A model generated the notes under the pieces. That model made no database searches, was not told where the DNA came from, and saw only the letters and a program-made list of their open reading frames with translations. From Actinomyces sp. AC-20-1 (GTDB taxonomy: Bacteria > Actinomycetota > Actinomycetes > Actinomycetales > Actinomycetaceae), in the NCBI RefSeq assembly GCF_023369555.1, contig NZ_JACJVC010000004.1, positions 124,001 to 188,000 of the forward strand: a stretch of 64,000 bases of DNA, in the 5' to 3' direction. The translations under genes were made by a program, and so were the position numbers. Positions 30,688 through 54,302 of the stretch are shown here, piece by piece; the stretch's first letter is position 1; the number at the start of each line of letters is the position of its first letter.

Positions 30688-32145
30688 TCAGACGTGGGTG
30701 CGGGAGCGGGCGAGGGCCTGGGCCCACTGGCGGCGCTCCCGGTCCCGCTCGGCGTCGGTGATCTGGGGGGTGTAGCGGTGGCCCTCGTCGCAGGCGGTGG
30801 GCAGGTCCCAGCCGAGGCGGGTGAAGCCCATGAGGGCGGCGCCGAGGGCGGAGACCTCGGCGTTGGAGGAGACGACGACGTCGCGGCCGAGCAGGTCGGC
30901 CTGGCGCTGCATGAGCAGCCGGGAGGCGGTGGCACCGCCGTCGGCGTGCAGGACGGTCAGGTCGGTGGTGTCGAGGGCCTCGATGACGTCGGCGATCTGG
31001 TGGGCGACGGCGTCGAGGGCGGCACGGGCGATGTGTCCGCGCTCGGTGCCGGCGGTGACGCCGCTGATGAGGCCGACGGCGTTGCGGTCCCACCAGGGCG
31101 CGCCCAGGCCGGTGAAGGCGGGCACGAGGGTGGTGCCGGCGGGTCCGGGGACGGTGGCGGCGAGGGCGTCGAGCTCGCGGCCGGGGGCGACGCCGAGCAT
31201 GCGGGCGGTCCAGTCCATGGCGGTTCCGGAGGCGACGATGTTGCCCTCGTGGCCGTACATGGGTGTGTCGGTGAGCCAGGCGAGGGTGGTGGACACGCCG
31301 GCGCGGGTCGTGCGGTCGTCGCCGGAGGGGATCATGACGGAGGAGCCGGTGCCGTAGGTGGCCTTGCCCTCGGCGGTGGTGCGGCAGCCGTGTCCGAAGA
31401 GGGCGGCGTGGGAGTCTCCCAGGACGCCGACGACGGGCACGCCGTCGGGCAGGAGGTCGAGGCCGCGGGTGGTGCCGAAGTCGCTGTTGGAGGCGACGAC
31501 GGCGGGCAGGAGCGTGCGTCCGATGCCGAAGAGGGTGCACATCTCCTCGGACCAGTCGAGGGTGGCGAGGTCGAGCAGGAGGGTGCGTGAGGCGTTGCCG
31601 GCCTCGATGACGTAGGAGGCCTGGCCGGTCAGGCGCCCGACGAGCCAGGAGTCGACGGTGCCGATGCGGGCGGTGCCGTCGGTGACGGCGTCGCCGACCT
31701 GGTCGAGGAGGTAGCGCATCTTGGGCGCGGAGAACATGGGGTCGAGGCTCAGGCCCGTGGTGGAGGCGACGGCGAACTCGCGCTCCGGGGAGCGCAGCCA
31801 GTCGCAGAACTCGGCGGTGCGCGAGTCCTGCCAGCCGAGCATGGGGGCGAGGGCCCGTCCGGTGGTGGCGTCCCAGACGACGACGGACTCGCGCTGGTTG
31901 GAGATGGTGATGCCGGCGGGGACGCCGGCCGAGGCGGGCAGGGAGCCCAGGCAGTCGCGGATGGCGGTGCACTGGGCGTCCCAGATGGCGTCGGCGTCCT
32001 GCTCGACCCAGCCGGGGCGGGGGTAGGAGACGGCCACGGGTGCGGAGCCGGAGGCGAGGACGGTGCCGTCGGGGGCGACGGCGAAAGCCTTGGCGTTGGT
32101 GGTGCCCTCGTCGAGGGCGAGGACGTAGGGCGTCGGTCCTGTCAT
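30688..32145 (-). CDS. FGGY-family carbohydrate kinase
   Basis: A 485-residue actin-fold sugar kinase. The N-terminal ATP motif is [23 protein letters not shown] and YGTGSSVM are FGGY features; [20 protein letters not shown] is the C-terminal FGGY signature. Segments such as [18 protein letters not shown] and MLGWQDSRT resemble glycerol kinase more than xylulokinase, so a short polyol or tetrulose/pentulose substrate is possible; I leave the symbol blank. ATG 32145 follows AAAGGAGC. It is first in the operon (kinase, isomerase, transketolase), 39 bp downstream of an operator shared with the ABC/hydrolase operon. Confidence 0.88.
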
Positions 32146-32318: not shown

Positions 32319-32438
32319 ATGAGATAACGACCGAGTTATGAGATAACTCGGCCTGTTGTGAGATAACTGGCCCTCGAAGGCACATCACTAGGGGCCGAGC
32401 CCACATCACTCGAGGTGCGATGAGATAACGCCGAGGTG
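32319..32438. repeat. periodic GAGATAAC box array
   Basis: Within the 544-bp gap upstream of the FGGY kinase gene, six 10-bp boxes of the same polarity recur at 19-22-bp steps: ATGAGATAAC at 32319, 32338 and 32420, GTGAGATAAC at 32358, and the degenerate GCACATCACT at 32380 and CCACATCACT at 32401. A small palindrome CCGAGTTAT-GAG-ATAACTCGG (32331-32351) is embedded. There is no open frame of note. Function unknown. Confidence 0.6.
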
Positions 32439-32515: not shown

Positions 32516-32643
32516 AGGACAACGTGCGCGCGGGAGGACAACCTGCGTGTCGTTGGACAACCTGTTGGCGTCACTCAGGTTGTCCAACACGCGACAGGTT
32601 GTCCTTGGGGCGACAGGTTGTCCTGGGAGCGGTAGGTGGTCCA
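32516..32643. repeat. seven-box bipolar array with 19-bp period, copy 1
   Basis: Three boxes read [A/T]GGACAAC[C/G]TG (32516, 32535, 32554) and four read as the reverse, CAGGTTGTCC[A/T] (32576, 32595, 32614) plus a decayed TAGGTGGTCCA (32633). Each is 11 bp; spacers are 8 bp, so starts are exactly 19 bp apart, with one 22-bp step at the centre. The same geometry with different spacers occurs at 54175-54302. It lies 46 bp downstream of the permease gene and contains no gene. Confidence 0.9.
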
Positions 32644-32689: not shown

Positions 32690-33556
32690 TCAGCCCTTGA
32701 CGGCCCCGGTGAAGGCGCCGGAGACGAAGTAGCGCTGGAAGATGAGGTAGACGAGCAGGACCGGGATGGCCGTCATGATGATGAAGGCGTTGAGCGGCCC
32801 GTAGTCCGTGCCGTGCTGGGAGGAGAAGTTCTGCACGGCCATGGGGATCGTGCTCATGAGGTCCGACTGGATGATCGTCGAGGCCATCGCGTACTCGTTC
32901 CACGTGGCCACGAAGTCGAGGACGAAGAGCGCCGCGAGGGTCGGCTTGACCAGCGGCAGGCAGATCTGCCAGTAGATGCGCAGGCTCGAGGCTCCGTCGA
33001 GGCGGGCGGACTCCTCGAGGGAGTCCGGGATCGCCCGGAAGGAGCCGTACATCATGAAGATCTGGTAGGGCACGCCGAAGGCGAGGTACGGCAGGATGAG
33101 GCCCGCGTAGGTGTCGAGCATCCCCGCCTTGAACAGCAGCTGGAACATGGGGCCCAGGGCCACCTGGATGGGCACCATGGAGCCGACGGCGAAGAAGGCG
33201 ACGAGCAGCTTGTGGTGTCGCATGCGGATGCGAGCCAGGGCGTAGGCGGCCAGGGTGGCGAGGAAGAGCCCGAGCGGGACCTTGATGACCGCGACGAGCA
33301 GCGAGTTCGACCCCGTGATCCACAGGTCCCCGACCTGGGCGGCGGTGAGGTAGTTGCCCCACAGCCACTCCTCCGGCAGCCCGATGGTCGAGCCGGAGGC
33401 CAGGTCCGCCCCGCTCTTGACGGAGGTGAGGAGCATGACGGCGAAGGGCATGAGCCAGGTGAGGGCGACGACGACGAGGGCGACCCACAGGCCGACGAGG
33501 ACCCAGTCGCGCTGCCTCCTGTTGCGGGGCAGAACGGGTGCGGTTGAGGTGCTCAT
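32690..33556 (-). CDS. ABC sugar importer permease, MalG/CarB type
   Basis: A 288-residue inner-membrane subunit with six helices. The EAA loop that docks the ATPase is SLEESARLDGASSLRIYWQI near residue 190. It pairs with the MalF-type permease encoded 2 bp upstream (33559) and the lipoprotein at 34536. ATG 33556 follows GGGGGAGGACTGACC. No ATPase gene is in the operon, so a shared MsiK-type ATPase encoded elsewhere is expected. The operon ends here, and the seven-box array follows 46 bp downstream. Confidence 0.93.
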   Translation of the reverse strand: MSTSTAPVLPRNRRQRDWVLVGLWVALVVVALTWLMPFAVMLLTSVKSGADLASGSTIGLPEEWLWGNYLTAAQVGDLWITGSNSLLVAVIKVPLGLFLATLAAYALARIRMRHHKLLVAFFAVGSMVPIQVALGPMFQLLFKAGMLDTYAGLILPYLAFGVPYQIFMMYGSFRAIPDSLEESARLDGASSLRIYWQICLPLVKPTLAALFVLDFVATWNEYAMASTIIQSDLMSTIPMAVQNFSSQHGTDYGPLNAFIIMTAIPVLLVYLIFQRYFVSGAFTGAVKG

Positions 33557-54174: not shown

Positions 54175-54302
54175 TGGACAACCTGGCGCGCGCAGGACAA
54201 CCTCACGCCACGTGGACAACCTGTGTGCGCAATTCAGGTTGTCCGTGTGGCGCCAAGTTGTCCATCCACAGACAGGTTGTCCATCCACAAGCAAGTTGTC
54301 CG
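54175..54302. repeat. seven-box bipolar array with 19-bp period, copy 2
   Basis: Forward boxes TGGACAACCTG, AGGACAACCTC and TGGACAACCTG start at 54175, 54194 and 54213. Reverse boxes CAGGTTGTCCG, CAAGTTGTCCA, CAGGTTGTCCA and CAAGTTGTCCG start at 54235, 54254, 54273 and 54292. All steps are 19 bp except the central 22 bp, identical to 32516-32643, and all spacers are 8 bp with unrelated sequence. It lies 26 bp downstream of the YeiH-type gene, also on the minus strand, matching the position of copy 1 after its permease gene. Confidence 0.92.

Follow-up and report, generated by a model that had tools for sequence, protein, structure and literature searches.

Most dispersed intergenic repeats of bacteria are orphan sequences, and the best-known pairing of a repeat with a protein is that of REPINs with RAYT. 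Published work states that REPs lie beside every RAYT examined (PMC3116915), and describes RAYTs as single-copy genes, inherited vertically, by which REPINs are duplicated (PMC8049555). The AbiE type IV toxin-antitoxin systems provide a second point of comparison. According to a published account, the AbiEi protein of S. agalactiae binds cooperatively to two 23-bp inverted repeats in its own promoter, and the M. tuberculosis relative Rv2827c shows negative, not positive, binding cooperativity (PMC7319586).

The arrays described here share features with both systems. As in REPIN-RAYT, a gene stands beside some copies of the repeat, gene-less copies are dispersed between genes, and repeat and protein appear to evolve together; a partner gene with the repeat on its flanks, and further repeat copies spread over the genome, are seen here with a gene family other than RAYT. 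The repeats themselves differ, however: they are bipolar arrays whose 7-bp boxes follow one another at a constant 19-bp step, and the protein associated with them is AbiEi-like. REPs are short palindromic inverted pairs, whereas the array boxes are non-palindromic. No RAYT (Y1/HUH tyrosine transposase, PF01797) was found in 30 Actinomyces genomes, including 7 then known to carry arrays, with 5 of 14 controls positive, and a REP/BIME reading was rejected on the absence of the Y1 transposase. The array-linked protein resembles AbiE proteins in its AbiEi-type N-terminal part but has an extra C-terminal domain, and many dispersed arrays take the place of one operator. Our best reading is of a system that would be organised like REPIN-RAYT around an unrelated protein. 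A literature search, covering parts of papers, met no description of such arrays or of this pairing.

Array geometry and distribution

The window, the whole 64-kb stretch of Actinomyces sp. AC-20-1 DNA that was analysed, contains two copies of the array. Its features, in window positions, are as follows.

30688..32145, minus strand: sugar (xylulose-type) kinase gene, neighbour, named from a reading of the translation
32516..32643, no strand: bipolar array copy 1, 7 boxes, FFF-centre-RRRR
32516..32526, plus strand: forward box 1, AGGACAACGTG
32535..32545, plus strand: forward box 2, AGGACAACCTG
32554..32564, plus strand: forward box 3, TGGACAACCTG
32562..32578, no strand: 17-bp centre CTGTTGGCGTCACTCAG between the inner cores
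32576..32586, minus strand: reverse box 1, TGGACAACCTG
32595..32605, minus strand: reverse box 2, AGGACAACCTG
32614..32624, minus strand: reverse box 3, AGGACAACCTG
32633..32643, minus strand: reverse box 4, TGGACCACCTA, variant core GGACCAC
32690..33556, minus strand: ABC sugar permease gene, neighbour, named from a reading of the translation
54175..54302, no strand: bipolar array copy 2, 7 boxes, FFF-centre-RRRR

The sequence-only reading had described three forward and four reverse boxes with a 19-bp period and a larger centre step, and all seven are found in place. Forward boxes start at 32516, 32535 and 32554 and reverse boxes at 32576, 32595, 32614 and 32633, giving box-start steps of 19, 19, 22, 19, 19 and 19 bp; between the GGACAAC cores the steps are 19, 19, 24, 19, 19 and 19 bp. 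Copy 2, also with three forward and four reverse boxes, has identical geometry, the outer span of the cores being 32517-32642 in copy 1 and 54176-54301 in copy 2. The first and last boxes of copy 1, AGGACAACGTG and TGGACCACCTA, are weaker, with 2 mismatches each. Box matches with up to 2 mismatches number 45 in the window, compared with a mean of 12.98 and a maximum of 21 in 100 shuffles. The ABC permease and sugar-kinase genes flank copy 1, as had been said of them, with the last box core 47 bp from the stop end of the permease gene and the first core 371 bp from the start of the kinase gene.

A separate row of TGAGATAAC boxes, all in one direction, occupies positions 32319-32430 of the window, with boxes at 32320, 32339, 32359 and 32421, two interspersed CACATCACT variants and a spacing of about 19-22 bp. 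This row, upstream of the kinase gene, may be an operator. Checked as a second family, it proved unique, with no other instance of its exact pair pattern in the whole genome.

The geometry agrees with the initial view that the array is neither a simple hairpin, nor CRISPR, nor a tandem repeat. Its boxes are short and opposed, whereas CRISPR repeats run in one direction, measure 20-50 bp and alternate with unique spacers, and the simple tandem repeat and simple hairpin are excluded on the same geometric grounds. DnaA boxes (TTGTCCACA) were considered, as the R boxes read TTGTCC, and rejected because the following bases misfit.

Across the whole genome of the window (G000), the pattern GGACAAC-N12-GGACAAC has 100 exact matches (48+52), and a reversed-pattern control has 2. 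The arrays measured number 28, with 188 boxes in total; a single box pair at C11:307594 was excluded. With boxes accepted at no more than one core mismatch, a rule that favours tidy step counts, the step between same-direction boxes is 19 bp in 127 of 132 cases (four are 20 and one is 38), and 27 of the 28 centre steps are 24 bp, the other being 43. Forward boxes number 2 to 5 per array, as do reverse boxes, the two numbers frequently being unequal, for a total of 4 to 9 at 19-bp steps. The commonest letters of the centre, over 27 arrays, give the consensus CTG..GG...C...CAG. The treatment of copy 1 as one of two copies is thereby superseded, and the test set beforehand, that further copies be sought in the same genome and in relatives, returned both dispersed copies and sister-species arrays.

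The arrays are intergenic: by a simple codon-usage gene caller, no predicted gene overlaps any of the 28 arrays in G000 or the 8 in Actinomyces bovis. The adjacent genes are convergent around 9 of the G000 arrays, co-directional around 14 and divergent around 4, with one unassigned, and neighbours read by eye include the housekeeping genes hpt/ftsH, rpsT/lepA and coaD/rsmD. In the relatives G176 and G205, about 14 and 18 kb separate the matches to hpt and ftsH, which are neighbours in G000. The arrays are like BIMEs and MITEs in being intergenic, multi-copy and less frequent between divergent (4) than convergent (9) genes. They differ in having a fixed phase with drifting letters, and in G000 their flanks show neither common sequence nor constant ends. 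Phased direct boxes that fit a row of protein also recall iterons and ParR-parC centromeres, but here two opposed rows are set about a centre, and an iteron or centromere is unlikely because the 28 copies are scattered between genes.

The RNA option of the sequence-only reading, a long 3'-UTR hairpin built from box-box helices, is extremely improbable. The opposed boxes necessarily make the two arms complementary at those positions, and the spacers also pair in some arrays of two relatives (G197, G206), yet spacer complementarity is 5.44 of 12 within arrays against 5.27 of 12 between arrays (p = 0.297; 27 arrays, 5000 shuffles, the 28th array, L051, being dropped for its odd centre). No Rfam 15 family reaches its gathering score in the 64-kb window, where the hairpin matches only microRNA models, far below threshold. 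With no excess of spacer pairing, no Rfam match, arrays in every gene orientation and arms that often differ in box count, the 3'-UTR proposal was given up.

Arrays with the same spacing and other letters occur elsewhere in the genus. Exact GGACAAC pairs are found in only 4 of 200 genomes of the family, two of them by single hits, and a scan of named genomes, from which the window's own genome was perhaps excluded, gave 12 stretches, all from A. bovis. The 8 arrays measured in that species have 22 of 22 same-direction steps of 19 bp and 8 of 8 centres of 24 bp. GGACNAC with one mismatch allowed matches 9 of 59 relatives, two of these belonging to other families with one hit each. Looser letters match 18 of 49 genomes of the genus, with at most one reversed-control hit per genome; hits number 113 in G174, 71 in G199, 58 in G201, 46 in G000, 28 in G149 and 24 in A. 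bovis (G193). Neither this looser pattern nor the CGACCRY pattern given below matches in 29 of the 49 Actinomyces genomes, a count that different spellings would escape. A blind search of 352 kb from G154, G195 and G172, too short a sequence for exclusion, gave no 19-bp array and one 20-bp hit. The 19-bp geometry is constant across species, and the letters of the boxes, the spacers and the centre vary. A viral origin was considered and rejected: viral contigs contain no GGACAAC array pattern, and no relative of the AbiEi-like protein described below was found in them.

An AbiEi-like gene flanked by arrays

Outside the window, at C45:104978-105913 of the same genome, an AbiEi-like gene lies between two bipolar arrays. 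Arrays are found on both sides of this gene in G000 and G145. AbiE systems have an AbiEii nucleotidyltransferase toxin adjacent to AbiEi; at L062, the locus annotated, the AbiEi-like gene is the only one called between the two arrays. Relatives in genomes free of GGACNAC are flanked by other spellings, namely CGACACC in G176, GGACCGC in G199 and CGACCAC in G183, and variant arrays, made of TACCGCC boxes with a long palindrome at the centre, flank members of the gene family in G181 (L246) and G164 (L249).

The G000 protein has 311 residues. It is matched by PADLOC AbiEi models (5e-6) and by no Pfam model at 0.01; among 25 proteins of the family, the PADLOC AbiEi model matches 21, Pfam AbiEi_1 matches 7 and AbiEi_4 matches 2, these models covering the N-terminal two thirds. 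This N-terminal part is a winged helix in published AbiEi. Alignment of the 25 proteins gives 33 invariant columns, including E198, E202, D235, E246, D248, K252 and E273. The C-terminal domain looks, by motif, like a PD-(D/E)XK nuclease of Vsr-like type, a label that we assume from the motif and the spacing of the invariant residues; the candidate catalytic acidic residues and lysine are unchanged in all 25 proteins. Pfam, NCBIfam and PDB offered no match to this domain, the sole returns being endoglucanases at E 0.7-1. DUF559 is described, in one paper, as common in Vsr-like PD-(D/E)XK endonucleases (PMC12907096); no DUF559 match was found in the C-terminal domain.

The association with arrays extends through the gene family. 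The relatives found in a search of 213 family genomes form a close set, about 43-60% identical and all from Actinomyces, and a distant set at 45% or less. Of 20 places in the close set, 17 had loci and entered array detection. A blind 4-box detector found bipolar arrays at 13 of these 17 loci, 19 being the only period detected in the range 14 to 30; the matches comprise 7 of 8 loci seen previously, which had prompted the idea, and 6 of 9 new ones. Among 29 hpt/ftsH control loci the same detector found no array of period 19 and a single one of period 24, and in the distant set 2 of 13 at period 19, one being an interrupted relative in G124, with single matches at periods 15 and 18. A second detector, based on 6-mers and applied to the close set plus L253, found period-19 arrays at 11 of 18 loci, on both sides at 8 and on one side at 3 more, and a period-20 array at 1. 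Of the 12 remaining relatives it gave 2 with period 19 and 1 with period 20, and of 29 controls none with period 19 and one with period 15. The 4-box detector missed L237, L244, L247 and L248; the second detector found L237 on both sides, the array of L244 is readable by eye, and no reading recognised an array at L247 or L248. The second detector missed L243, L246 and L249. Possible 19-bp arrays also lie on both sides of a distant relative from another genus (L255, in G101), where chance or terminators could account for them.

The letters beside the gene predicted dispersed copies. A CGACCRY pattern with an 18-bp centre, derived from the gene-side arrays of G183, G233, G204 and G038, matches 5 of 49 genomes, these four and G145, each of the four source genomes also having hits that do not lie beside the gene; the control gave one hit in total. 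At least 5 pattern hits are present in 13 of 17 gene-bearing genomes and 3 of 32 others, a comparison biased towards gene-bearing genomes in that the patterns were written from gene-side arrays. When the box labels are mapped onto a maximum-likelihood tree of 20 proteins, they require 6 changes, the smallest number possible, against a shuffled mean of 13.4 with 0 of 200 shuffles as low; near-copies inflate this clustering, and the labels, assigned by eye, include one for array-less loci and one for three outgroup proteins. Six inner forks of the tree are open. The label GGAC[CA]A alone needs 3 changes and forms no clade, and CGACC needs 2. The partner proteins of the close hosts G000 and G205 are only 55-56% identical and their gene-side array letters differ, from which it appears that the letters track the protein more than the host. 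Some arrays depart from their gene-side spelling: GGACAAC arrays are present in G205 and CGACCRY arrays in G145. Together these observations indicate that the array is probably a dispersed copy, lacking the gene, of an element with two components that occurs in many Actinomyces species.

A different view makes the arrays part of a recombination or mobility system with its enzyme encoded elsewhere, the AbiEi-like gene being only a frequent passenger like VapC-type or HEPN/MNT-like genes. Three array pairs in G000, each about 1 kb apart, do enclose different genes, and two of these pairs are near-identical direct copies with short common flanks. One pair (L048 3287-4434, on C2), of similar arrays, surrounds a PIN-domain (VapC-type) gene and its partner, another (L060 2984-4033, on C43), of near-identical arrays, surrounds a HEPN/MNT toxin-antitoxin pair read by eye, and the third contains the AbiEi-like gene. 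Arrays are also present where the gene was undetected: at E 1e-3 nothing matched in A. bovis, and the G149 search, run solely at E 1e-20, was likewise negative. Four further genomes (G197, G206, G189, G003) have a few arrays and lack the close form of the gene. We nevertheless consider a mere passenger role unlikely, since the AbiEi-like gene recurs beside arrays of several spellings in many species and box spelling clusters on the tree of its protein, whereas the VapC-type and HEPN/MNT-like genes were each seen once, in a search confined to G000.

Site turnover and transposon-like carriers

G205 is a close relative of G000, with 11 of 12 gene pieces matching at 90-96% identity; the permease piece of copy 1 has no G205 counterpart beyond a 38-base match. 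Of 11 G000 sites compared, 7 are array-free in G205, 2 carry an array and 2 (L052, L061) are ambiguous. The two shared sites are the gap of window copy 2, which holds a GGACCAC array in G205, and the L064 site. At L064, 1 of 35 box positions differs from the G205 counterpart, against 20 of 53 positions in spacers plus centre (Fisher p 9e-5); this retention of boxes while spacers and centre drift, in a single pair, points to selection on the boxes. One site (L057) shows a 146-bp difference between G000 and G205, near array size and ambiguous in polarity; five further sites were aligned, and their gaps are larger or split.

Retention of boxes at this orthologous array could also fit sites for a host regulator or chromosome-organising protein, maintained by selection. 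Inner boxes are mismatched less often (9 of 132) than the outermost (16 of 56, often GGACCAC), a count biased by the way ends are called. Such a role is very unlikely, however, given the 7 of 11 sites that are array-free in so close a relative, the 148 array-near G000 proteins, none of them more than 45% identical to anything in the 19 array loci compared from A. bovis, and the 29 of 49 genomes matched by neither pattern, other spellings escaping that count.

At several loci the gene has the same surroundings as the L064 array. An ABC-transporter gene end is common to 6 of 17 AbiEi-like gene loci by motif search, and to L238 by eye, and the gene-less L064 array of G000 lies at this same ABC-transporter gene end. 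A simple reading of L064 would be that the AbiEi-like gene was lost through recombination between its two arrays.

Some arrays are carried by larger units. Eight of 12 near-identical copies in G205 lie within an element of about 1.05 kb with inverted ends, two more do so partly, and an exact 8-bp boundary duplication is present in 5 of the 8. At one such locus (L104 2391-3437) the element, about 1.05 kb with long inverted ends, has its array mid-element. A second transposon-like element with arrays, represented by L263-L288 in G199 and L290-L302 in G174, has the ends TAGGTC.TGTTGTGTAAGT in several of 7 G199 copies inspected. The carriers may be ISL3-like and IS256-like. The array alone as a transposon with fixed ends was considered and rejected, the copying unit in G205 being the bigger element. 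As many copies are inside such elements, recent array spread in G205 and G199 may owe nothing to the AbiEi-like protein.

These elements, with their boundary duplications and inverted ends, could suggest that arrays are inert passengers of small transposon-like elements, their regularity a product of recent common copying. We regard this as highly improbable. In G000 the flanks and spacers have diverged with boxes and spacing unchanged, two different types of element carry arrays, and the gene-side arrays of G199 lack the second-element ends.

Proposed mechanism and significance

The reading we prefer remains that of a two-component element, made up of the arrays and the AbiEi-like gene. A protein binding platform had been among the options first put forward for the array; it is now the favoured one and a candidate protein has been found for it, although binding itself we infer, as we do cutting and mobilisation by the AbiEi-like protein. 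One monomer would read one box, and the 19-bp step would let neighbouring monomers touch. Two opposed rows of protein would then meet over the centre, where the putative nuclease domains may act. Copies may spread through the repair of cuts, through recombination between arrays, or by transport inside small transposon-like elements.

We advance tentatively the fuller possibility of a new repeat system, in which an AbiEi-derived nuclease would assemble on the opposed rows, act at the centre and copy or maintain the arrays. Its specificity would have shifted several times with the geometry fixed, and unrelated transposon-like elements would have taken up arrays.

If this is true, the arrays represent a second, unrelated pairing of repeat and protein, implying that such arrangements arise repeatedly, with different chemistry. 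One geometry with several spellings, each with its own protein, would also constitute a natural experiment through which the recognition code of AbiEi-type domains becomes testable.
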